This document shows positions 40,968-64,000 of a DNA stretch of 64,000 bases, one piece after another; position 1 is the first letter of the stretch; each line of letters opens with the position of its first letter. The stretch covers positions 186,001 through 250,000 of the forward strand of contig NZ_JAAVUP010000004.1 of NCBI RefSeq assembly GCF_012163135.1, given 5' to 3'. The translations under genes were made by a program, and so were the position numbers. Under the pieces are notes generated by a model. That model did not search any database. It saw only the letters and a list, made by a program, of their open reading frames with translations, and was not told the origin of the DNA. This DNA is from Neoroseomonas oryzicola (lineage in GTDB: Bacteria > Pseudomonadota > Alphaproteobacteria > Acetobacterales > Acetobacteraceae).

Positions 40968-41015
40968 CCACCCCATGTGGTGGTGGCAGGACTGTGGCAA
41001 GACTACATCTTGTGT
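40968..41015 (+). promoter_or_regulatory. Pair of NrdR-like operators upstream of nrdA
   Basis: Two imperfect 16-bp palindromes, CCACCCCATGTGGTGG at 40968-40983 and AGACTACATCTTGTGT at 41000-41015. Compared with the E. coli type consensus ACACTATATATAGTGT they match 9 and 12 of 16. Their centres lie 32 bases apart, three helical turns, the spacing typical of NrdR box pairs. NrdR represses ribonucleotide reductase genes when dNTP pools are high. The spacing supports the call more than the sequence. Confidence 0.65.
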
Positions 41016-41052
41016 CTGGTGGCCCCTGGGCGGCAGGATGCCGGTCCAGGGG

Positions 41053-42945
41053 ATGAGTTATCCGGGGGGTTCTTCAGTGTTCGACGCAGTACAGCTCGAG
41101 GGCCATGGCCAGGTCCGCATCGATCGTTCGCGCGACGCGCTGCTGACCGATTTCGGCAAGGCGACGCTAGATGACCGCTATCTGCTGCCGGGCGAGTCCT
41201 ACCAGGACCTGTTCGCCCGCGTGGCTTCGGCCTACGGCGACGACGCGGCCCATGCGCAGCGGATCTACGACTACATCTCGCGCCTGTGGTTCATGCCGGC
41301 GACGCCGGTTCTGTCGAATGGCGGCACGACTCGCGGCCTGCCGATCTCCTGCTTCCTGAACGAGGCCTCGGACAGCCTCGATGGCATCGTCGGGCTGTGG
41401 AACGAGAATGTCTGGCTCGCGGCCAAGGGCGGGGGCATCGGGTCCTACTGGGGCAACCTGCGCGGCATCGGCGAGAAGGTCGGCAAGAACGGCAAGACCT
41501 CGGGCGTCATCCCCTTCATTCGGGTGATGGACAGCCTGACGCTGGCGATTTCCCAGGGGTCGCTGCGGCGCGGCTCGGCGGCCTGCTACCTGCCGGTGCA
41601 CCACCCCGAGATCGAGGAATTCCTCGAGATGCGCCGCCCGACCGGCGGCGATCCGAACCGCAAGGCGCTGAACCTGCACCACGGCGTGCTGCTGTCCGAC
41701 GCCTTCATGCGCGCGGTCGAGAATGACGAGGAATGGGCGCTTCTCTCGCCGAAGGACCAGGCGGTGATGCGCAAGGTCTCGGCGCGCGCGCTGTGGATCC
41801 GCATCCTCACCGCCCGCATCGAGACGGGCGAGCCCTACATCATCTACTCGGACCACGTGCACCGCGCGCAGCCGGCGCACCACAAGCTGGCGGGGCTCGA
41901 GGTCAAGACCTCGAACCTCTGCTCCGAGATCACGCTGCCGACCGGGCTCGACCAGCATGGCCAGGAGCGCACGGCGGTGTGCTGCCTGTCGTCCCTGAAC
42001 TGCGAGACCTGGTTCGAGTGGAAGGACGATCCGGACTTCATCCCGGACGTCATGCGCTTCCTCGACAACGTGCTGCAGTCCTTCATCGACACCGCGCCGG
42101 ATTCGATGGCGCGGGCGAAGTACAGCGCGATGCGGGAACGTTCCGTCGGCCTCGGCGTGATGGGCTTCCACAGCTTCCTGCAGAAGATGAACGTGCCCTT
42201 CGAGTCCGTCGTCGCGAAGGTGTGGAACAAGAAGATGTTCAAGCACATCCGCGCCCAGGCGGATGTCGCGTCCCGCGTGCTGGCGGAGGAGCGGGGCCCG
42301 TGCCCCGACGCCGCCGAATACGGCATCATGGAGCGCTTCTCCCACAAGATCGCGATCGCGCCGACGGCCTCGATCTCGATCATCTGCGGCGGCGCATCCC
42401 CGGGCATCGAGCCGATCGCGGCGAACGTCTACAACCACAAGACGCTGTCGGGCTCCTTCATCGTCCGCAACCCGTACCTGCAGAAGGCGCTGGCGAAGCA
42501 CGGGCGCGACGACGAGGAGACCTGGACATCGATCACCGTGACCAAGGGTTCGGTGCAGCATCTCGACTTCCTGACCGAGCAGGAGAAGGCGGTGTTCAAG
42601 ACCGCCTTCGAACTCGACCAGCGCTGGGTGATCGAGCATGCGGCCGACCGCACGCCGTATATCTGCCAGTCGCAGTCGGTGAACCTCTTCCTGCCGGCCA
42701 ACGTGCACAAGCGCGACCTGCACCAGATCCACATGAGCGCGTGGAAGAAGGGCGTGAAGTCGCTCTACTACTGCCGTTCGCTGTCGATCCAGCGCGCCGA
42801 TACCATCAGCGAGAAGGTGGCGCCGCAGGCGGCCCTCGGCGCCAAGGCGGCGAACGACGTCGCGCCGGTGCAGATGCCGCTGGTCGCGGCGGCGCAGCCG
42901 GCGGGGAATTCGAACAACTACGAGGAATGCCTGGCCTGCCAGTGA
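41053..42945 (+). CDS. nrdA: Class I ribonucleoside-diphosphate reductase alpha subunit
   Basis: About 630-residue large subunit that reduces NDPs to dNDPs with NrdB. Blocks ATPVLSNGGTTRGLPISCF, GSLRRGSAACYLPVHHPEIE, LKTSNLCSEI-like VKTSNLCSEITLP, and APTASISIICGGASPGIEPI are readable. The C-terminal redox pair is ECLACQ. It is shorter than E. coli NrdA (761 residues) and I see no N-terminal ATP-cone. Three in-frame starts are possible: ATG 41038, ATG 41053, and GTG 41077, which has the best Shine-Dalgarno (GGGGGG at 41064-41069). It is divergent from a Bug gene over 247 bases holding the NrdR-like boxes. Confidence 0.93.
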   Translation: MSYPGGSSVFDAVQLEGHGQVRIDRSRDALLTDFGKATLDDRYLLPGESYQDLFARVASAYGDDAAHAQRIYDYISRLWFMPATPVLSNGGTTRGLPISCFLNEASDSLDGIVGLWNENVWLAAKGGGIGSYWGNLRGIGEKVGKNGKTSGVIPFIRVMDSLTLAISQGSLRRGSAACYLPVHHPEIEEFLEMRRPTGGDPNRKALNLHHGVLLSDAFMRAVENDEEWALLSPKDQAVMRKVSARALWIRILTARIETGEPYIIYSDHVHRAQPAHHKLAGLEVKTSNLCSEITLPTGLDQHGQERTAVCCLSSLNCETWFEWKDDPDFIPDVMRFLDNVLQSFIDTAPDSMARAKYSAMRERSVGLGVMGFHSFLQKMNVPFESVVAKVWNKKMFKHIRAQADVASRVLAEERGPCPDAAEYGIMERFSHKIAIAPTASISIICGGASPGIEPIAANVYNHKTLSGSFIVRNPYLQKALAKHGRDDEETWTSITVTKGSVQHLDFLTEQEKAVFKTAFELDQRWVIEHAADRTPYICQSQSVNLFLPANVHKRDLHQIHMSAWKKGVKSLYYCRSLSIQRADTISEKVAPQAALGAKAANDVAPVQMPLVAAAQPAGNSNNYEECLACQ

Positions 42946-43181: not shown

Positions 43182-44336
43182 ATGCTCGGGCAATCGGTCC
43201 ACCGGGGGGGTGGTGCCGGCTCGTGGCCAGGGGGTGCGTCCGTGGATTCCGGGGCCGTGTCCGGATCCTTCGCGCAGCGCCTGCTGGCCGAGCTGCGTGC
43301 CGACATCCCCCTGCATCTCATTGTCGCCGCCTATGCGGGCGCGGTCTTCCTGGTCGCCCAGACATTGGGCCGTCCCGAGAAGTTCGAGCTGCTGATGTAT
43401 GCGGAACGATGGATCATCGTCCTGCCGGGCCTGGTCTTGCCTGGGATTGCCTGCATCGGGGTGGTCTGCGCCGTCATCACGCATCCGAGAGCCCCCTTCA
43501 CCGGGCTCGTGAGATTTCTCTGCCACCCCCGCGGTCCCAGGCTCGCCGCGGGTCTGGTGCTCTTCACCTCCGTCACGCTGTTCTATGGCGCCTTCACCTC
43601 GGCCAAGAACCTCCTGCCCGAGGTGTCGCATTTCGACTGGGACGTCGCTCTGGCGGATCTGGGCGAGTGGATGCACGGCGGGACGCCGCTGTGGCGCCAC
43701 CTGCATCCGGTTCTGACGCCCTACACGCGGTATATTGATATTTTTTACAATGTCTTCTGGCAGGTCGCGATGCTGACCATGGTCCTCGCCATGGCATTCG
43801 CGAACCAGAGGCGTCGGCGCTTCTTCATCATATTCTTCCTGTGCTGGATCGTCCTCGGCAACGTCCTGGCCGGCATGTTCTACTCGGCGGGGCCGATATT
43901 CTACGATCGCGTGGTTGGCGACGCGCAGAGGTTCCGGTTTCTCCTCGACTACATCGGCGGCTACCAGGATCCGCCGCTCGCGGTCAGCGTCTACCAATCC
44001 TACCTCTGGACCCTGCATCGGTTGGGCGCGCCTGAATTCGGCAGCGGCATTTCCGCCTTCCCCAGCATGCACGTGTCCATGGCGACGCTGATCGCCCTCT
44101 GGCTGACGCGGATGCACCGCCGCCTGGCCATTCCAGCCGTGCTCATGGTGCTGCTGACCCAGGCGGGATCGGTGCATCTGGGCTGGCACTACGCGGTCGA
44201 CGGCTATGCCTCGATCGTCCTGACCTACCTCATCTGGCGCACGGTCGATCAGGCTGCGTCGCGGCAGCCCGTGCGCCGCACGGCCCCGCCGGCGGCCCTC
44301 GACGGGGCGATGGCACCGGCGGGCGCGGGCGGCTAG
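43182..44336 (+). CDS. PAP2-superfamily membrane phosphatase/transferase
   Basis: 384-residue membrane protein with about six hydrophobic segments. The PAP2 catalytic region is in the last third: SGISAFPSMHVSMATLIALW (motif 2, residues about 287-306) and GSVHLGWHYAVDGYASIVLT (motif 3, with His and Asp). The first motif KxxxxxxRP is not obvious. Members release phosphate from lipid phosphates such as undecaprenyl pyrophosphate, or transfer head groups as in inositolphosphorylceramide synthases, which this length and layout resemble. Lower GC stretches inside the gene (near 43730-43750) suggest horizontal origin. The ATG at 43182 gives a hydrophilic N-terminus; a GTG near 43241 is an alternative. 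Confidence 0.82.
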   Translation: MLGQSVHRGGGAGSWPGGASVDSGAVSGSFAQRLLAELRADIPLHLIVAAYAGAVFLVAQTLGRPEKFELLMYAERWIIVLPGLVLPGIACIGVVCAVITHPRAPFTGLVRFLCHPRGPRLAAGLVLFTSVTLFYGAFTSAKNLLPEVSHFDWDVALADLGEWMHGGTPLWRHLHPVLTPYTRYIDIFYNVFWQVAMLTMVLAMAFANQRRRRFFIIFFLCWIVLGNVLAGMFYSAGPIFYDRVVGDAQRFRFLLDYIGGYQDPPLAVSVYQSYLWTLHRLGAPEFGSGISAFPSMHVSMATLIALWLTRMHRRLAIPAVLMVLLTQAGSVHLGWHYAVDGYASIVLTYLIWRTVDQAASRQPVRRTAPPAALDGAMAPAGAGG

Positions 44337-44383: not shown

Positions 44384-45361
44384 ATGACACGCATGATGCC
44401 ACGCCGGACCCTCGGCCTTGCCGGGGCCGCCCTCGCCATCGTGCCCGCTGCGCGCGCCCAGGCTGCCTGGCCCGACAAGCCCGTCCGGCTCATCATCGGC
44501 TATCCTGCCGGCGGCCCGACCGATTTCGGCGGGCGATTGCTGCAGGACCCGCTCGGGCGGCTCTGGGGGCAGCCCATCGTCATCGAGAACCGCCCCGGCG
44601 CCAGCCAGGTCATCGCCAGCGAGGCGGTCGCGCGGTCCCCGGCCGATGGCTACACGCTGTTCCTCTCGGCCAGCACCCATGCGAGCAACGCCGCGGTCTA
44701 TGCCCGGCTGCCCTACGACACGCTCGCGGACTTCACCCCGATCGTGAACATCTACGCCTCGCCGACCGTGCTCTTCGTCGGGCGGGATTCCCCGCTGCGC
44801 AGCGTCGCCGACCTCGTCGCCGCCGCGCGGCGCGATCCGGGCGGCATGGCCTTCGCTTCCTCGGGCAATGGATCCTCGGGGCATTTCGCGCTCGAGATGT
44901 TCCGCCGCAAGGCGGGGATCGAGGTCACCCATGTCGCCTTCCGGGGCGCCGCCCCCGCCCTGCAGGAGGTGATGGCCGGCCGCGTGCCGGCCACTTTCAG
45001 CACCCTGTCGGGCGCGATCGGCCTCGCACGGGACGGTGGCCTCCGGCCGCTTGCCATCGGCGGTCCGCAGCGGGTCGAGGTGCTGCCAGGCGTTCCCACC
45101 CTCGAGGAGGCCGGCTTCGGCATCCCCGACACCAGCCCCTGGTATGGCTTCATCGGCCCGAAGGGCCTGCCGCGGCCGATCGTCGATCGCGTCGCCAACG
45201 ACACGCTCGGCCTGCTGCGCGACATCACGATCCAGCGCCGCATCGTCGACGCCGGCGGCGTCGTCATCGGCGAGGGGCCAGAGGCTTTCGACGCCCGCAT
45301 CCGGCGCGAACTGGCAGAGAACGCGGTCATCGCGCGCGAGGCCGGGATCAGGGTCGAGTAG
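44384..45361 (+). CDS. Bug-family (TTT) periplasmic solute-binding protein
   Basis: 325-residue paralogue of the protein at 39828-40805. It has a Tat-like signal (PRRTLGLAGAALAIVPAARA). The family blocks are WPDKPVRLIIGYPAGGPTDF, VIENRPGASQVIASEAVARS, MAFASSGNGSSGHFALEMF and THVAFRGAAPALQEVMAGRV. No transport membrane subunit is adjacent. It lies 48 bases after the PAP2 gene on the same strand and splits nrdA from nrdB. The ligand (a carboxylate in known members) is unknown. Confidence 0.92.
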   Translation: MTRMMPRRTLGLAGAALAIVPAARAQAAWPDKPVRLIIGYPAGGPTDFGGRLLQDPLGRLWGQPIVIENRPGASQVIASEAVARSPADGYTLFLSASTHASNAAVYARLPYDTLADFTPIVNIYASPTVLFVGRDSPLRSVADLVAAARRDPGGMAFASSGNGSSGHFALEMFRRKAGIEVTHVAFRGAAPALQEVMAGRVPATFSTLSGAIGLARDGGLRPLAIGGPQRVEVLPGVPTLEEAGFGIPDTSPWYGFIGPKGLPRPIVDRVANDTLGLLRDITIQRRIVDAGGVVIGEGPEAFDARIRRELAENAVIAREAGIRVE

Positions 45362-45405
45362 GGATTGCCGCGAGTCGCGCTTCGTCCTCTTGCCAACCCG
45401 GCCAA

Positions 45406-45453
45406 CCACAACATGTAGCGGTCGGACATTGCCGCGACCACCAATCGTGGTAG
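45406..45453 (+). promoter_or_regulatory. NrdR-like operator pair upstream of nrdB
   Basis: CCACAACATGTAGCGG at 45406-45421 matches the NrdR consensus at 10 of 16 and shares ACAANATGTAG with the reverse complement of the second box at nrdA. A second, weaker inverted repeat CCAC-N5-GTGG lies at 45438-45450, about 31 bases downstream centre to centre, the same three-turn spacing as at nrdA. This suggests that both separated reductase genes answer to one regulator. Confidence 0.55.
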
Positions 45454-45489
45454 GAATCAGCGCGACGCACCGTTCCTGGGGGATGGCTC

Positions 45490-46542
45490 ATGGCCGATGG
45501 CATTTCGACCGACGAACTTCCGGTGAAGTTCGACCTGCTGACCGCGAACCCGGTCTACAAGCCGTTCCGCTACCCCTGGGCCTATGACGCCTGGCTGACC
45601 CAGCAGCGCATCCATTGGCTGCCGGAGGAAGTGCCGCTCGCCGACGACGTGAAGGACTGGCAGAAGAACCTGACCGAGTCCGAGCGGAACCTGCTGACGC
45701 AGATCTTCCGCTTTTTCACCCAGGCCGATGTCGAGGTGAACAACTGCTACATGAAGCACTACTCCCAGGTGTTCAAGCCGACGGAAGTGCTCATGATGCT
45801 GTCGGCCTTCTCGAACATCGAGACGGTGCACATCGCGGCCTATTCCCATCTCCTCGACACCATCGGCATGCCGGAAATCGAGTACACGGCGTTCCTGAAG
45901 TACAAGGAGATGAAGGACAAGTACGACTACATGCAGGCCTTCTCGGTCGCCAACAAGGTCGAGATCGCCAAGACGCTCGCCGCCTTCGGCGCCTTCACCG
46001 AAGGGCTGCAGCTCTTCGCCTCCTTCGCGATCCTCATGAACTTCCCGCGCTTCAACAAGATGAAGGGCATGGGGCAGATCGTGTCCTGGTCGGTGCGCGA
46101 CGAGACGCTGCACTGCCTGTCCGTCATCCGGCTGTTCCGCACCTTCGTGCAGGAGAACCCGGAGATCTGGACGAAGGAGCTGCAGCGCGACATCGCCCTG
46201 ATCTGCGCGACCATCGTCGACCACGAGGACGCCTTCATCGACCTCGCCTTCGAGCTCGGCGGCGTGCAGGGCCTCGATGCCGCGGCGACCAAGCAGTACA
46301 TCCGCTTCATCGCCGACCGGCGCCTGCAGCAGCTCGGCCTCGATCCGCTCTACAACATCGAGAAGAACCCGCTGCCCTGGCTCGACGAGATGCTGAACGC
46401 CGTCGAGCACACCAACTTCTTCGAGAACCGCGCGACGGAATACTCGAAGGCCAGCACGGCCGGCACCTGGGAGGAGGCCTTCGCGGATTCCGTCTTCTCC
46501 TCGCCGCAGCCCGACGGTGCGATCGAGGGCGTGCGCCACTGA
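45490..46542 (+). CDS. nrdB: Class I ribonucleoside-diphosphate reductase beta subunit
   Basis: 350-residue ferritin-like radical-generating subunit. The first iron ligand is in FFTQADVEVNNCYMKHY (residues about 77-93). The second cluster with the radical tyrosine is NIETVHIAAYSHLLDTIGMP, where the E, H and Y-x-H pattern fits. SWSVRDETLHCLSVIRLFRT and EDAFIDLAFELGG supply the remaining ligands. The C-terminal tail ends VFSSPQPDGAIEGVRH. No ATP-cone is seen in it either. The start at 45490 is 128 bases downstream of the Bug gene. Confidence 0.94.
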   Translation: MADGISTDELPVKFDLLTANPVYKPFRYPWAYDAWLTQQRIHWLPEEVPLADDVKDWQKNLTESERNLLTQIFRFFTQADVEVNNCYMKHYSQVFKPTEVLMMLSAFSNIETVHIAAYSHLLDTIGMPEIEYTAFLKYKEMKDKYDYMQAFSVANKVEIAKTLAAFGAFTEGLQLFASFAILMNFPRFNKMKGMGQIVSWSVRDETLHCLSVIRLFRTFVQENPEIWTKELQRDIALICATIVDHEDAFIDLAFELGGVQGLDAAATKQYIRFIADRRLQQLGLDPLYNIEKNPLPWLDEMLNAVEHTNFFENRATEYSKASTAGTWEEAFADSVFSSPQPDGAIEGVRH

Positions 46543-57830: not shown

Positions 57831-58220
57831 TCACGGGCGCAATGCGAGGCGCGCCCGGCGCACCGACGGCAGCGCCTTGCCGGGCAAGCCGTCGGCCAGC
57901 GCCTGATGGGCGTTGCGCAGATGCGCCGCGAGCCACTCGACATGCTTGGGCGGGGTCGTGCCGCGCGCCGCGTCCAGGCTGATGCGCGTCGCGGCGAGGC
58001 CGAGCGCGGTCGCGGCGGCTTCCTTGCGGCCAACGCGCAGGTCTTCCTCGACCTCGGCGAGCAGGTGGTCGACCACCGCGTGCGGGCCGGTCAGCGTCTC
58101 GGCCAGCGGGGTCATCGGGTCCGTGAGGCCCGGGTCCTTCTCCGACGGGGCGTCGGCGGCCGGCAGGCTGATGTGGGAGAGCAGGTCCATCATGGACTTC
58201 GTAAGCGGCGTGTTCGGCAT
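57831..58220 (-). CDS. Conserved-looking hypothetical helical protein
   Basis: 129-residue soluble, helical protein. A 50-residue N-terminal part (MPNTPLTKSMMDLLSHISLP, then PLAETLTGPHAVVDHLLAEV) precedes a two-helix repeat: EDLRVGRKEAAATALGLAAT, and HVEWLAAHLRNAHQALADGL. The latter looks like a TPR or four-helix domain. No signal, no membrane segment. The ATG at 58220 gives MPNTPLTKS; an extension to 58283 would read into the intergenic region. I do not recognise the family. Confidence 0.65.
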   Translation of the reverse strand: MPNTPLTKSMMDLLSHISLPAADAPSEKDPGLTDPMTPLAETLTGPHAVVDHLLAEVEEDLRVGRKEAAATALGLAATRISLDAARGTTPPKHVEWLAAHLRNAHQALADGLPGKALPSVRRARLALRP

Positions 58221-58346
58221 GGTCTGACCGGCGTCCCTCTCGATAGGTCGCGGCCCCCCGCCGGGGGCCGGGCTGGATGGCAAATTCAGCGCACTGGCTA
58301 GGGCCTGCCTTGATCCGGGGCAAGCCTCGATGATGCGGCGCGGAAT

Positions 58347-59183
58347 CTATCGCGTGCCGGGGCGGCGGCGGACCCCGTCGGCCACCAGGGTGCAGCCGGC
58401 GACCGTCAGCATGATGGCGAGGCCCGGCCAGACCGCGGCCCAGGGGGCGCTGAACACCAGTTCCTGGGCGTTCGCGAGCATGTTCCCCCAGGACGGCGCC
58501 GGCGGGCTGATGCCGAGGCCGAGGAAGGACAGCGTCGATTCGGCGAGGATCGCGCCGGCCACGGCCAGCGCCGTCGCCACCGCCACCGGCGCGGCGAGGG
58601 CGGGCAGGACGTGGCGCAGCAGGATCCGCGCCTCGCTGGCGCCAAGCGCGCGTGCCGCCCGCACATGGTCCCGCGCGAAGGTCGAGAGTGCTGCCGCGCG
58701 CGCCAGCCGCGCCACCCCGATCCAGCCGAACAGTGCGAGGATGACGACGATCCGCAGCACGTCGCCCGCCGCCTCCCCGCGCGCCGGCAGGCCGATGCGC
58801 GACGGATCCGCCGCCGCCAGCAGGACCAGCAGCGGCAGGGCCGGCAAGGCGAGCATGAAGTCCGCGATGCGCATCACCAGCGCATCCGCCACCCCGCCGC
58901 GCCAGGCCGCGAAGAGCCCCGCCGCCGTGCCGATCACCGTCGCCGCCAGCGCCGCCGCCAACCCCACCGCGAGCGACACCCGCGCCCCGTGCAGCAGCCG
59001 CAGCAGGATGTCGCGCCCGAGGTCGTCCGTGCCGAGCGGATGCGTGGCCGAAGGCGGCTCGAACCGCGCCAGCAGGTCGGGCGCGAAGGGATCATGCCCG
59101 AGCATCGCCGCGACGAGCGGCGCGGCCGCCGCCGCCAGCGCGAGCGCGCCCAGGATCGCGAGCCCCGCGGCGAGCCGCGTCAT
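58347..59183 (-). CDS. Opp/Dpp-type ABC transporter permease (DppC-like)
   Basis: 278-residue inner-membrane permease of the peptide/nickel uptake type. It opens PLGTDDLGRDILLRLLHGAR, the DppC hallmark. About six helices follow. The EAA-type loop that contacts the ATPase is ARALGASEARILLRHVLPAL (residues about 170-189). Its start at 59183 overlaps the end of the other permease gene (ATGA), so they are coupled. The ATP-binding subunits are not next to it. Confidence 0.92.
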   Translation of the reverse strand: MTRLAAGLAILGALALAAAAAPLVAAMLGHDPFAPDLLARFEPPSATHPLGTDDLGRDILLRLLHGARVSLAVGLAAALAATVIGTAAGLFAAWRGGVADALVMRIADFMLALPALPLLVLLAAADPSRIGLPARGEAAGDVLRIVVILALFGWIGVARLARAAALSTFARDHVRAARALGASEARILLRHVLPALAAPVAVATALAVAGAILAESTLSFLGLGISPPAPSWGNMLANAQELVFSAPWAAVWPGLAIMLTVAGCTLVADGVRRRPGTR

Positions 59184-60103
59184 CGTTCCGCGAGCCTCGG
59201 GTCGAGCAGCCGCTGCGCGACATCAGCCGCGAGCGTCGCGAGCATCGTCACCAGGGCCACCAGCAGCAGCGCGACCAGCGCGAGATTGGTGTCGTTGCCC
59301 ATCACCGCGTCATACAGCAGCTTGCCCATGCCGGGCCGCGCGAAGACCGTCTCGGTCACCAGCGCGCCGCCCGCCAGCGCCCCGGCATCGAGCGCCGCGA
59401 TCTGCAGCACCGGCAGCGCCGCGTTCGGGAAGGCATGCCGCCACAGCACCACGCGTTCCGGCGCGCCGCGCGCCCGCGCGGTGCGGATCCAGGGTTCGGT
59501 CAGCGTCGCCTCGAGGCTCGCCGCCGAATGCCGCGCATAGGCGGCGAGATGCGCGACCGCGAGCGTCGCCAACGGCAGCACCAGGTAGGCGAGGCCGAGA
59601 CCGTGTTCCGCACTGCCGCCCGCCGGCAGCCAGCCCAGCGTCACGGCGAAGGCGATGATCAGCAGGATGCCGAGCCAGAAGGTCGGCATCGCCTGGCCCA
59701 TCACCGCCACGGCATCGACGGCCGGCGCCGTCCGCGGCCGCGACGCCGCCAGCGCGCCCAGCGCGACGCCCAAGACCAGCGCGATCAGCAGCGCCGTCCC
59801 CGCCAGCACCAGCGTCGATCGCAACGCCGGCAGCAGCAGCGACGCCACCGGCTGGGCAAAGAGGCGCGAATAGCCGAACTCCCCGCGCACCAGCCCCGAC
59901 GCCCAGGCGAGGTAGCGCTCGAGGAAGGGACGGTCGAGGCCATGCAGCGCGCGCAGCCGCGCGGCGTCCTCCGCCGTCAGCCGCGGGTCGCCGGCGATTG
60001 CGACCTCGATCGGGTCACCGGGCATGAGCGCGATCAGGGCGAAGGCGCAGAAGGAAAGGATCGCCAGCGTGAGTGCGATCTGGAGGAGACGGCGAGCGAT
60101 CAT
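59180..60103 (-). CDS. Opp/Dpp-type ABC transporter permease (DppB-like)
   Basis: 307-residue permease. It starts MIARRLLQIALTLAILSFCA, then ALMPGDPIEVAIAGDPRLTA, and RLRALHGLDRPFLERYLAWA, the DppB N-terminus. The coupling loop is RTARARGAPERVVLWRHAFP near residue 200, and VFARPGMGKLLYDAVMGND is conserved. The upstream frame to 60349 would read through the repeat and is rejected. It follows the VOC gene, with 85 bases including a repeat in between. Confidence 0.93.
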   Translation of the reverse strand: MIARRLLQIALTLAILSFCAFALIALMPGDPIEVAIAGDPRLTAEDAARLRALHGLDRPFLERYLAWASGLVRGEFGYSRLFAQPVASLLLPALRSTLVLAGTALLIALVLGVALGALAASRPRTAPAVDAVAVMGQAMPTFWLGILLIIAFAVTLGWLPAGGSAEHGLGLAYLVLPLATLAVAHLAAYARHSAASLEATLTEPWIRTARARGAPERVVLWRHAFPNAALPVLQIAALDAGALAGGALVTETVFARPGMGKLLYDAVMGNDTNLALVALLLVALVTMLATLAADVAQRLLDPRLAER

Positions 60104-60113
60104 GCGCGGTGAC

Positions 60114-60178
60114 GGGAGGGGCGCCGCCCCTCCCGAACCCACCCCGCCAAAGGCCGAAAGGCCTTTGGAAACCGATAC
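60114..60178. repeat. Family A palindromic repeat, copy inside the transporter operon
   Basis: GC hairpin GGGAGGGGC/GCCCCTCCC (60114-60134) followed by CCAAAGGCC/GGCCTTTGG around GAAA (60147-60168), then AAACCGATACG as in the copy at 23037. It lies between the VOC gene and the permease gene, so it would be inside the polycistronic mRNA, where such hairpins can stabilise upstream segments. Confidence 0.8.
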
Positions 60179-60188
60179 GCAGGGCGTG

Positions 60189-60578
60189 TCACGGGGGGCG
60201 GTGGCACACCGCTTCGACGCGGTTGCCGTCCGGGTCCAGCAGGAAGGCGGCGTAGTAGTGCGCGTGGTAGTGCGGGCGCAGGCCGGGCGGGCCGTCATCC
60301 GTGCCGCCGTGTGCCACGCCCGCGGCGTGGAAGGCGTCGACGGCGCCACGATCGGGCGCGCGGAAGCACCAGTGCCGGCGGTCCGCCTGGATCACGGCGC
60401 CGGTCGCGCGGATGGTCAGGTAGGTGTGGCCGTCATCCTCGGCGCTGCTGCGCAGGCCGTAGCCGATGGCATCCGCCTCGCGCCACACGCACGGCACGCC
60501 GAGCGCCGCCATCACTGCGTCGTAGAACCGCGCCGCGCGCGGCAGGTCGGCCACGGTGATGGAGACGTGGTCCAGCAT
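60189..60578 (-). CDS. VOC-family protein
   Basis: 129-residue vicinal-oxygen-chelate protein. It begins MLDHVSITVADLPRAARFYD with a metal His, and contains YLTIRATGAVIQADRRHWCF, then HYHAHYYAAFLLDPDGNRVE. The His and final Glu of the metal site are in place. It is encoded between the transporter's binding protein and permease genes, sharing one base with the binding-protein stop. A role in processing the imported compound is an inference from position. Confidence 0.87.
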   Translation of the reverse strand: MLDHVSITVADLPRAARFYDAVMAALGVPCVWREADAIGYGLRSSAEDDGHTYLTIRATGAVIQADRRHWCFRAPDRGAVDAFHAAGVAHGGTDDGPPGLRPHYHAHYYAAFLLDPDGNRVEAVCHRPP

Positions 60579-62242
60579 CAGCGCGCCCGCCACTCCTCCG
60601 CCCACAAGGTCGAGACGTTCAGATGCCCCGTCGGCCGCACCCCCTCCAGCCATTGCGGCCAGACATGCGCGTCCGCGCGGAACCAGAGCGGGATGGCCGG
60701 CAGATCCTCGGCATAGATCGCCTGCAGCCGACGCCACATCACGCGGCGCTCGGCGGGGTCGAGCTGCTCGGGGATGGTCTGCGTCAGCACGTCCATCTCC
60801 GGGTTGCGGTAGCCGCCGTAATTCTGGCCGGACCAGTTGGTCGCCTCGCGCGGGATGTCGTCGGAGTTCAGCGCGGATCGCGGCACGCTCTCCGGCGCGC
60901 TGATCCAGGCGAAGAGCGCCAGCCCCTGGAAGCGCCGGCGCGACAGCGTCTCGGCGAAGAGCACGCGCGGCGGCTCGTTCCTGATCCGGGCATCGATGCC
61001 CGCCTGCCGCCACATGCCCTGCAGCACCTGCTGCACCGCCTCGCGCGAGCGGTTGCCGGCGGTGGTCATGAACTCGATGGACAGGCGGTCTCCGGACGCG
61101 TTGCGGCGGATGCCGTCGGGGCCCGGCGTCCAGCCGGCCTCATCCAGCAGCGCCCGCGCGCGGGCGAGGTCGAAGGGCCATTGCCGCACGTCCGGATCGT
61201 GCATCGGGTCGAGCGGATTGACCGAGCTATGCGCGACCGGCTGCCGTCCGGCGAAGAGCCGTTCGGTGATCTGCGCACGATCGGTGGCGAGCAGCAGCGC
61301 CTGGCGCACGCGCCGGTCCGACAGCGCCGGATGGTCGTGCCGCACGTCCATGTGCTCGTAGATCAGCCCCGGCTGGTAGAGGAAGCGGAAGCGGTTGCCG
61401 GTGCGGCGTTCCAGCGCGATGGCCTGCTCGATCGGCAGGCCGAGCTCACCCGCGACCATGTCCACCTGACCGGCGAGCAGCTGCGCCTCCAGCGCCGGCG
61501 TGTTCTCCACCGTGCGGATGGTGATGCGGCGGAACTGCGGCGTAGCGCCGTTCCAGGTCGGGTTGCGTTCCAGCGTGACGGAGGCGCCCGGCTGTACCGC
61601 GGTGATGCGGAAGGGGCCGTTCCACAGCGCGGGGTTGGTCGTCTCGGTGTCGTAGGCGGTGCGCGTGCGGTAGGCGCGCGGATCGGCCTGCCAGCGGGTG
61701 CGCTCGATGTGTGCGGGCAAGGGCTGGAAGTCGCCGGCCGAGGCGTATTCGAAAGTGACGCGGTCGAAGCGGATGGTGACGGTGCGTGGGTCCTCGACGA
61801 TCAGCTCATAGGCGCTGCGGTAGTATTCCGCGGGACCGAAGCCGGTGGCGGCGTCGCGGCCGGCTTCCCAGGCGAAACGCAGATCTTCCGCCGAGACCGG
61901 CGTGCCGTCGCCCCAGCGCAGGCCCTCCCGAAGGCGATAGGTGACGCGGATGCCGGGCTTCCCGTCCGGCGTCGTCTCCCGCACCGCGAGGCCGTTTTCG
62001 AGCGAGGGCAGCGTCTCGCAGGTCAGGCAGGTGAGCCGCCAGTCCGCGCCATAGGCCGTGAGCGGACGTCGCGCGAAGCCCAGCACGTAGGACTTCGCGG
62101 CCATGTTCTCGATGTTGGGGTGGAAGGTCGACGGATACTGGGTGATGCCGATGGTGAGCGCGTCGCGCGGCTGGGCGGCGGCGGGCGCCGCAGCAGCCAG
62201 TAAGAGTGCCGCATAGCAAAGGACCTGATGTCGCATGCTCAT
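60578..62242 (-). CDS. ABC transporter substrate-binding protein, family 5 (peptide/opine type)
   Basis: 554-residue periplasmic binding protein. The Sec signal ends at PAAAQPRD (residue about 25). SBP_bac_5 motifs: TIGITQYPSTFHPNIENMAA, then YRLREGLRWGDGTPVSAEDL (the family hallmark, residues about 107-126), RFAWEAGRDA, and late LDEAGWTPGPDGIRRNASG. It is the receptor of the permeases at 58347-60103. The substrate could be a peptide, opine or glycoside. Its start overlaps the stop of the gene before it (ATGA); two ATGs (62242, 62236) are possible. Confidence 0.93.
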   Translation of the reverse strand: MSMRHQVLCYAALLLAAAAPAAAQPRDALTIGITQYPSTFHPNIENMAAKSYVLGFARRPLTAYGADWRLTCLTCETLPSLENGLAVRETTPDGKPGIRVTYRLREGLRWGDGTPVSAEDLRFAWEAGRDAATGFGPAEYYRSAYELIVEDPRTVTIRFDRVTFEYASAGDFQPLPAHIERTRWQADPRAYRTRTAYDTETTNPALWNGPFRITAVQPGASVTLERNPTWNGATPQFRRITIRTVENTPALEAQLLAGQVDMVAGELGLPIEQAIALERRTGNRFRFLYQPGLIYEHMDVRHDHPALSDRRVRQALLLATDRAQITERLFAGRQPVAHSSVNPLDPMHDPDVRQWPFDLARARALLDEAGWTPGPDGIRRNASGDRLSIEFMTTAGNRSREAVQQVLQGMWRQAGIDARIRNEPPRVLFAETLSRRRFQGLALFAWISAPESVPRSALNSDDIPREATNWSGQNYGGYRNPEMDVLTQTIPEQLDPAERRVMWRRLQAIYAEDLPAIPLWFRADAHVWPQWLEGVRPTGHLNVSTLWAEEWRAR

Positions 62243-62916
62243 GAGGTGCTCTTCTGCTGACGCCAGCCGAGCACGATTTCCTGGCTGCGAACCAGATAGA
62301 TCCGATCGTATGGCCAGTTCGCGCCGCCCTTATCCTGTGCGGCGCATCGTAGGAACCCCGCTGCAGCACTGTTGCTGAGGTAGATGCTAGTATTGGTTTG
62401 ATCGTAGATTAGGAGCCAGCGTTCAGCTGAAGCGGGTGCATTTCGCCACGTCTGTTCGGCGGACTTGCGCAAGAAGGACGCTCTCAGGGCCTCGATGAAA
62501 GTCCGCTCAGGAGCGTCCCCGATCCAACCGTCCCCGCCCGGACTGGGGATGGAGACAACCTCAGTGGGACCCACAGTCTCTGAGCGCGCATGCTCGATCT
62601 CTGACAAGAAACGCTGGTAGTGAGGCTCCCCCGCGTCGGTGTGCTCTATCGCGATGGCTGCGCCGCAGGGACGATGGATGAGGAAGTCGGGAGCCTCGTT
62701 GCGAAAGATGGTCGCCGGAAAGAGGCTGGGCTCCGTCAGGAGCAGGTGCCGTAGCAAGGCAACCAAGCAGAAGCGCTCGCGATGGGCCGGGGTGCGTCCT
62801 TCGCTTCGACTCGGAGCATCAAATGTCAATTCTTCAACGAGGTCGCGACCCTCCACACCGCCAGGAACGGTGAACGCACCGCCCGTCAGCAAAAGCGTGG
62901 AGGGATCGGTGTTCAT
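62239..62916 (-). CDS. Unrecognised protein between pyrE and the transporter; possible nuclease-like fold
   Basis: 225-residue protein of noticeably lower GC than its neighbours. It lacks a signal peptide and membrane segments. I recognise no family. The segment APDFLIHRPCGAAIAIEHTD (residues about 75-94) has the form P-D-hydrophobic-x(9)-hydrophobic-E-H-T. That recalls small PD-(D/E)xK-like proteins with an E-V-T/E-x-T ending, but the Lys is absent. The last third reads WLLIYDQTNTSIYLSNSAAA and YDRIYLVRSQEIVLGWRQQ, a beta-rich end. It is 12 bases downstream of pyrE and overlaps the SBP gene by ATGA, so it sits in their operon. Confidence 0.7.
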   Translation of the reverse strand: MNTDPSTLLLTGGAFTVPGGVEGRDLVEELTFDAPSRSEGRTPAHRERFCLVALLRHLLLTEPSLFPATIFRNEAPDFLIHRPCGAAIAIEHTDAGEPHYQRFLSEIEHARSETVGPTEVVSIPSPGGDGWIGDAPERTFIEALRASFLRKSAEQTWRNAPASAERWLLIYDQTNTSIYLSNSAAAGFLRCAAQDKGGANWPYDRIYLVRSQEIVLGWRQQKSTS

Positions 62917-62928
62917 GCTGCTGTCCGA

Positions 62929-63651
62929 TTACTCCACCGCATCCTTCAGCTTCGCTTCCTCCACGCTCCCCACGCCCCCATGCGCCTTCGACCAGGACAC
63001 CGGGTCCTCGAGGAACTTCCGCACTTCCTTCAGCGCGGCCTCGCTGAAATACGGCTTCTCGCGGCAGACCTCGAGCACGTCCCACCAGGTGCAGAGGTGG
63101 TGCAGGTTAAGCCCCATCGCCTGCATCTTGTCGAAGGCGCCGGGGAAGACGCCGTAGAAGAAGACGACGAAGGTGTGCTCGCAGACCGCGCCGGCCTCGC
63201 GCAGCGCGTTCGCGAAGCGGATCTTGGACCCGCCGTCGGTGGTCAGGTCCTCGACCAGCAGGGTGCGCTGGCCGACCGGCACTTCGCCCTCGATCTGGGC
63301 GTTGCGGCCGAATCCCTTCGGCTTCTTCCGGACATAGGCCATGGGCGCCATCATCCGGTCGGCGATCCAGGCGCCGAAGGGGATGCCGGCGGTCTCGCCA
63401 CCCACCACCACGTCGATCGATTCATAGCCGACATGGCGGCCGATCTTCTCGACGCCCAGTTCCATGATGCGGTTGCGCGCCCGGGGGAAGGAGATGATCT
63501 TCCGGCAGTCGATGTAGACGGGGCTCTTCCAGCCGCTGGTGAAGGTGTAGGGCTCCTCGGGGCGGAAATTCACCGCCTTGATCTCGAGCAGGATGCGCGC
63601 CGTGGTCAGGGCGGCATCGCGGTCCCATTCGGAGGCGTGCAGCGCGGTCAT
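62929..63651 (-). CDS. pyrE: Orotate phosphoribosyltransferase
   Basis: 240-residue type I phosphoribosyltransferase in UMP synthesis. The PRPP-binding motif is [20 protein letters not shown] (residues about 120-139), with [20 protein letters not shown] and [20 protein letters not shown] upstream. [18 protein letters not shown] is the flexible loop. It is longer at the C-terminus than E. coli PyrE, as in Alphaproteobacteria. It is divergent from the ELM1-family gene across 63 bases. Confidence 0.95.
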
Positions 63652-63714
63652 GGTTCTTCGTCCTGGTGGTGGTCCGGTTCCCCCCTCTGGTAGTCGGCGG
63701 AAGGGGCGCCGTCC

Positions 63715-64000
63715 ATGACGCAGGCGGAGGCGGGGCGCATCTGGGTGCTGGCCGACCCCCGCGCGGGCACCGCGGCCCAGGCCATCGGCATCGCCGAACG
63801 GCTCGGCCGGCCCTTCCGGACCGTGCCGCTGGAATGGGGGATGATGGCCCGGCTGCCCCTGCGCTGGGCGACGACCATGGGGCTGACGGCGGCCGCGCGG
63901 CGGGAACTGGACGGGCCGCTGCCGGACCTCGCGATCTCGGCCGGGCGGCGCAGCGCCGCGGTGGCGCTGTGGCTGGGGCGGCAGGGGGTCCGGACGGTCC
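63715..64000 (+). CDS. ELM1/GtrOC1-family protein (N-terminal part)
   Basis: First 95 residues of a protein cut by the window edge. It opens [23 protein letters not shown], then [20 protein letters not shown] and [18 protein letters not shown]. That matches the family of bacterial relatives of plant mitochondrial fission protein ELM1, predicted to be GT-B glycosyltransferases and often found near lipid-A or murein genes. The ATG at 63715 has AAGGGGCG upstream. No function is known. Confidence 0.85.

Follow-up and report, generated by a model that had tools for sequence, protein, structure and literature searches.

In nucleases of the PD-(D/E)XK superfamily, the motif II aspartate and the acidic residue (D/E) of motif III are carried by the second and third core strands, and a motif I glutamate in helix 1 often accompanies them. 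A 2007 survey of the superfamily describes several families in which the motif III lysine has moved to motif IV, and notes that in DUF1626 this lysine is often a threonine, with a basic residue in the following helix (PMC1913061). Here we describe a gene that appears to encode a protein of this variant kind, in a stretch of 64,000 nucleotides (64 kb) from Neoroseomonas oryzicola (contig NZ_JAAVUP010000004.1, positions 186,001 to 250,000), referred to below as the window. The gene (positions 62239..62916, minus strand) starts with ATG and encodes a protein of 225 residues. We propose that it is a horizontally exchanged and probably defence-type PD-(D/E)XK nuclease, with a putative activity and role. 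We consider this reading as a whole somewhat better than even; the nuclease part by itself is quite likely, and the defence part stands at about even chances. What is new here is the family, which has no name; the PD-(D/E)XK kind to which it would belong is known.

The gene occupies a slot bordered upstream by pyrE (orotate phosphoribosyltransferase; 62929..63651, minus strand; Pfam Pribosyltran, PF00156) and downstream by an ABC-transporter solute-binding protein (SBP) gene (60578..62242, minus strand; Pfam SBP_bac_5, PF00496). The pyrE stop codon is 12 bp from its start, and its TGA shares 4 bp (ATGA) with the ATG of the SBP gene, an overlap already reported in a first-pass annotation of this DNA. 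That annotation had also described a base composition unlike that of the neighbours, and we agree: GC content is 0.608 in the gene, 0.660 in pyrE, 0.705 in SBP and 0.714 over the 64-kb window, and at third codon positions it is 0.686 against 0.925 in pyrE and 0.903 in SBP. When 678-bp segments were taken across the window in 50-bp steps, 0.63% of them had a GC content as low as that of the gene. Third-position GC is 0.64-0.72 in the five other full-length copies from Acetobacteraceae. The gene is present once in its own genome, and scans of 58000-64000 detected neither promoters nor terminators, where shuffled sequence yields 0.3 and 1.5, respectively.

The protein matched no family in Pfam, NCBIfam, PADLOC or PHROGs, and the PDB, whether searched by sequence or by profile, returned nothing significant, so the original impression that it matches nothing known holds for all of these libraries. 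Eight homologues were also scanned. Six of them have no Pfam family and the other two match DUF29 (PF01724), one of which additionally shows GH114_assoc below the Pfam cut-off; PADLOC recognised no known defence model in any of the eight. In two homologues from our class sample (L058 997-1998 and L059 949-2040, both minus strand) the domain of this family is fused to a C-terminal DUF29. Among the open-licence papers listed in literature searches, nothing concerned the gene family or the pyrE-SBP slot.

To describe the putative active site we used 13 distinct proteins, including that of the window, in two overlapping alignments of 9 and 10 rows. Although pairwise identity among them is 13-50%, R41, E47, P67, P76, D77, E91 and K151 are invariant in all 13, which, judged from the alignments, exceeds what chance would produce. 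Two of the putative motifs fall within residues 75-94 of the product, APDFLIHRPCGAAIAIEHTD. These are motif II, P76-D77 (codons 62686..62691), at the start of a predicted strand (78-81), and motif III, E91-H92-T93 (62638..62646), in a predicted strand (87-95), with E-x-T replacing E-x-K. E47 (62776..62778), in the predicted helix 43-61, is the motif I candidate; these codons, like that of K151, are on the minus strand. The remark in the first-pass annotation that the pattern lacks a lysine is correct for motif III, where residue 93, the lysine position, is Thr in 11 of the 13 proteins, Ser in one and Val in one. It does not hold further downstream, where the invariant K151 (62464..62466) follows the predicted helix 135-150. 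K151 is a candidate substitute for the lost motif III lysine, that is, a catalytic lysine that may have migrated.

An AlphaFold model of the window protein, made with the 10-row alignment, had a pLDDT of 82.1 and a pTM of 0.80. It contains helix 43-61, strands 68-72, 78-81 and 87-95, helices 97-113 and 135-150, strand 165-172, helix 182-196 and strand 205-210. E47 is placed in the first core helix, D77 opens the second strand, E91 and T93 lie in the third, and K151 sits just past the second helix after the third strand. A homologue from genome G657, 22% identical to the window protein, gave a model (pLDDT 73.7, pTM 0.71) with the same order of elements and with the lysine equivalent to K151 inside helix 140-161; both models were built from one shared set of ten sequences. 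As predicted, the order of elements is restriction-endonuclease-like, and E47, D77 and E91 are placed as the superfamily would lead one to expect. Structural searches with VIA-align placed CdiA-CT (4g6v, Z 7.8) next after the leading matches of the window model, which are discussed below, followed at Z 4-6.3 by PaqCI (6.3), AF2093, XisH, Card1, BsmI, SfsA, MunI, HamA and others. The G657 model matched PA4535 (1y0k) with Z 9.4 over 144 aligned residues at 3.7 A and, lower down, CdiA-CT (6.7), PaqCI (6.1), XisH, YaeQ, BsmI and FokI. Many of these chains (CdiA-CT, PaqCI, XisH, BsmI, YaeQ, MunI, SfsA, FokI, HamA and Card1) we take to be restriction-endonuclease-like.

The 1y0k chain belongs to DUF1780 (PF08682), which Pfam describes as a 'putative endonuclease': one protein that the DUF1780 model recognises at 6.7e-123 also matches the chain, at 1.7e-115. 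Assignment of the chain to DUF1853 was considered and rejected, as none of 20 relatives carries DUF1853 and a model of 285 positions is a poor fit to a chain of 209 residues. A global hhalign comparison of the family with DUF1780 gave an E-value of 0.0029, where the reversed control had 0.83, and aligned E47 with E29, PD with PD, E91 with E67 and K151 with K123. Neither the window protein nor any of the eight scanned homologues matches the DUF1780 model above the Pfam cut-off, and DUF1780 itself occurs in 2 of 120 genomes of a phylum sample, both of one genus. On the predicted structures, DUF1780 is the best small-protein match found for this unnamed family. The suggestion that the protein is PD-(D/E)XK-like has thus survived in the main: the predicted order of fold elements, the positions taken by the invariant acidic residues and the match of a homologue to DUF1780 speak for it, with no fold match being decisive.

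Relatives of the gene are rare and scattered. Among 397 genomes of the family Acetobacteraceae we found four true homologues besides the gene itself, 34-44% identical to it. Two further hits of that search (L006 and L007, E about 7e-4) were dismissed as chance, being partial alignments inside a longer frame without the E47, PD and E-H-T motifs. Profile searches found the gene in 3 of 35 genomes of the genus (its own, G000, and G313 and G417) and in 6 of 299 genomes of an order sample, a count that includes its own genome and a fragment in G205. This fragment lies at a contig end, outside the pyrE slot, and reads PD and E-I-A; the G205 slot holds another, larger gene. Besides its own genome, 4 of 385 genomes in a class sample and none of 398 in a phylum sample carry a homologue. 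Single-sequence scans of collections of genome contigs and viral contigs found no relative, a profile scan found four in the genome collection and none in the viral one, and tblastn found no match to the protein in phage sequences. The carriers in the genome collection are Neoroseomonas eburnea LMG 31228, Roseomonas sp. AR75, Falsiroseomonas bella and an Acetobacteraceae metagenome-assembled genome (MAG). Remote homologues are plasmid-borne, with three intact copies in Massilia sp. H6, Shewanella baltica OS117 and Pseudomonas nitroreducens; a remnant on a Cupriavidus necator plasmid is spread across more than one reading frame and, like the G205 fragment, was kept out of the 13 aligned proteins.

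In Acetobacteraceae, each of the six full-length copies found (window, N. eburnea, G417, AR75, F. bella and the MAG) is flanked by pyrE and SBP and runs in their direction, and in four of them (window, N. eburnea, G417 and AR75) the stop codon overlaps the SBP start by 4 bp. To place this in context we examined 74 pyrE loci, a non-random set drawn mostly from the best of 281 pyrE matches in the family sample and including nine (L064-L072) picked by their SBP match and five as carriers of the gene. SBP follows pyrE on the same strand in 65 of these loci, with less than 250 bp between them in 36 and more in 29, and in the remaining nine no SBP follows within the stretch examined. Within the genus, 16 of the 35 genomes have a strong SBP match, always paired with pyrE. 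Ten of these slots are empty (-19 to 124 bp between the borders), three hold a gene of the 62239-62916 type, and one each holds a ParE toxin with a partner resembling RHH proteins below the Pfam cut-off, an MUG113/T5orf172 (GIY-YIG-like) protein, and a 377-residue protein without a Pfam family. Outside the genus the occupants are ParE-type toxin-antitoxin pairs, some of them decayed, a GIY_YIG_2 protein, or genes of larger size; nine cargo proteins were scanned with Pfam and the others were assigned by their similarity to those nine. Junctions with alternating small cargo are found, for example, at L070, L072, L038, L067, L029-L032, L048, L080, L091 and L095. In AR75, F. bella and the MAG the gene follows a toxin-antitoxin pair, while in the other two genus carriers it is alone in the slot. 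These observations establish the gene as an accessory passenger of a co-directional pyrE-SBP slot. Wide conservation beside pyrE, which had been named as a finding that would speak against a transferred gene, exists in a narrow sense only: the full-length copies are all there, yet most slots of the genus are empty.

In a tree of pyrE and SBP DNA, G000 is sister to G104, which has an empty slot (support 100), G313 is sister to G347, also with an empty slot (99), and G417 is sister to G404, which carries GIY-YIG-like cargo (89); several inner nodes are weak (49-70). Since each genus carrier is thus sister to a non-carrier, either repeated gain or repeated loss is needed, and the foreign composition of the gene favours gain. 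We had also considered a conflict between the gene tree and the host tree; this was dropped, as support at the key nodes is low (54, 31 and 22). The idea of a transferred accessory gene, already raised in the first-pass annotation, fits its patchy presence, its composition, the plasmid-borne relatives and a slot that accepts several kinds of cargo.

Sequence exchange seems to reach inside the gene as well. Comparison of AR75 with F. bella shows 86-96% protein identity for pyrE, antitoxin, toxin and SBP, against 50% for the gene of the 62239-62916 type. At the DNA level, identity is about 78-85% to just beyond the E-H-T motif, then about 35-55% as far as the SBP leader, where it returns to 95%. 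This sharp drop within a gene of two close relatives (L015 6261-6652 versus L017 6228-6636) implies that the 3' half of the gene and the SBP leader were replaced, or have diverged exceptionally, in one of the two; the C-terminal half from F. bella can still be aligned with the family. SBP leaders also differ among members of the genus, for example between G000 and G104, whose mature SBPs are 96% identical. A bolder proposal, which we regard as tentative and rather doubtful, is that this is a family of stand-alone, one-gene nucleases against invaders, with a relocated catalytic lysine, made diverse by exchange of alleles and half-genes. The first half (to E-H-T) would be conserved between close strains, and the C-terminal half, which bears K151 and possibly recognises a target or trigger, would be swapped at the pyrE-SBP slot.

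Altogether, we suggest that the product of the gene is a nuclease with a single domain, a member of the PD-(D/E)XK (restriction-endonuclease-like) superfamily whose own family has no name. E47, D77 and E91 would hold metal ions, K151 would replace the motif III lysine, and the enzyme would cut nucleic acid. Expression would occur together with pyrE and would be coupled to translation of SBP. The protein may have a defence-type job, attacking either invading nucleic acid or that of the infected cell itself, and the fast turnover of the gene, including the replacement of its C-terminal half in one pair of relatives, may reflect defence conflict. The surroundings of two plasmid copies are consistent with such a role. 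The Shewanella copy is near AbiD (PADLOC), which is followed by SieB (Pfam), and the Massilia copy is near PDC-S39 (PADLOC), with one open reading frame (ORF) between in either case.

Several observations weigh against a defence nuclease. As proposed at the outset, structure prediction was followed by Foldseek: the first step gave the restriction-endonuclease-like order described above, and the second returned nothing from the PDB at E <= 0.001 for either the window or the G657 model. Predicted viral structures likewise gave nothing at this threshold, the best match being a phage minor capsid protein at 2.7e-3. In VIA-align, the central region of eukaryotic acetyl-CoA carboxylase heads the lists of both the window model (Z 6.1-8.1) and the G657 model (Z 8.0-10.2), the top Z of 8.1 for the window model is within the range typical of models without a clear match, and 1y0k is absent among the best 50 matches of that model. 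The profile comparison with DUF1780 is fragile, with hhalign probabilities of 3-4% and a template of two near-identical rows. A local alignment (E 0.015, reversed 0.15, probability 3%) ends after PD, and the local match falls elsewhere when a different alignment of the family is used (E 0.045). An alignment of five sequences by MAFFT brings E, PD and E of the two families into register and leaves the lysine out of it. As to defence, no methylase, immunity or sensor gene that could be a partner was seen next to the window copy, and PADLOC recognised none of the three neighbours scanned for the P. nitroreducens copy. Four chromosomal relatives from the class sample are surrounded by genes whose translations suggest housekeeping roles, and inspection by eye picked out no defence gene among them. 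A DUF29 fusion in G767 lies between glutamate-synthase-like genes, and another, in G523, is near undecaprenyl-diphosphatase-like and mechanosensitive-channel-like genes, all named from reading translations. In genome G795, a small ORF just downstream of a homologue (L057 2203-2532, minus strand) was read as GIY-YIG-like, echoing the alternative cargo of the slot.

The alternative that survives best, which we nevertheless think unlikely, is that the protein is an RNase or DNase resembling a toxin, directed at the host cell in abortive infection or addiction, and not a restriction-type enzyme against an invader. Both models have the CdiA-CT toxin chain among their better structural matches, the same slot accepts ParE-type toxin pairs, and the Shewanella plasmid copy has an AbiD gene nearby. 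A toxin of this kind is harder to reconcile with the window copy, which has no adjacent antitoxin or immunity gene, and with the two other genus carriers, where the gene has the slot to itself.

Less probable still is that the fold is the one seen in the CDC region of eukaryotic acetyl-CoA carboxylase and that the protein has no catalytic activity, serving for example in binding or as a scaffold. Carboxylase chains do lead both structural lists, and the published description of the CDC region gives six-stranded sheets with long helices between strands 3 and 4 and between strands 4 and 5, in a non-catalytic domain (PMC4833862). A scaffold would hardly explain three invariant acidic residues and a lysine at the positions of nuclease motifs in proteins of such low identity, and PA4535, from a putative endonuclease family, is within 1 Z of the best carboxylase match. 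We consider the restriction-endonuclease-like assignment of the model good but not proven, since the shape is matched equally well by this non-catalytic domain.

A selfish nuclease of the homing type, which would carry its own gene into the pyrE-SBP junction, could account for a solitary nuclease-like gene at a precise slot in separate lineages, with GIY-YIG proteins as alternative cargo. We find this improbable, as relatives lie at many other sites and unrelated toxin-antitoxin pairs occupy the same slot, which indicates that the slot does not depend on an enzyme of this type. A housekeeping accessory of the pyrE-transporter operon, serving pyrimidine salvage or oligopeptide uptake, would suit the uniform position and direction of the six copies and the SBP overlap in four of them, but it is barely credible for a gene of foreign composition of which no copy was found in 32 of the 35 genus genomes (13 of them with pyrE and SBP paired), whose distant relatives are at unrelated sites and on plasmids and whose slot is taken by other cargo elsewhere.

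If our preferred reading of a defence-type PD-(D/E)XK nuclease is right, a superfamily that is large and hard to detect gains an unnamed family whose active site is a variant one. The pyrE-SBP slot of Acetobacteraceae, which alternates between toxin-antitoxin pairs, GIY-YIG proteins and this nuclease-like family, would be a place to seek uncharacterised defence-type genes, and the fusion of DUF29 to a nuclease-like domain offers a functional hint for DUF29.

Elsewhere in the window, ribonucleotide-reductase-like genes for a large subunit (40975-42945) and a small subunit (45490-46542) are split by two other genes. From reading their translations, these encode a PAP2-like membrane protein (43182-44336) and a Bug/TctC-like binding protein (44384-45361). 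A dip in GC content at 45251-46428 corresponds to the small-subunit gene.

Compared with known systems, the gene shares its site, direction and patchy presence with the ParE-type toxin-antitoxin pairs and GIY-YIG proteins of the pyrE-SBP slot, whose proteins are unrelated to this family. DUF29, a domain of unknown function, is linked to it through the two fusions and is absent from the window protein. DUF1626, DUF506 and DUF790 are alike in that the motif III lysine is replaced and a basic residue stands in a following helix (PMC1913061). The window protein differs from them in having no Pfam match and in the position of K151, after the second helix and 60 residues past E91. DUF1780 differs in its marginal resemblance by profile (global E 0.0029, probability 4%) and in that the window protein matches no Pfam model. 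It resembles the family in its similar size, in the structural match, with Z 9.4 across 144 residues, between 1y0k and a distant member's model, and in E, PD, E-x-(no Lys) and RK, which the global hhalign alignment places in register.

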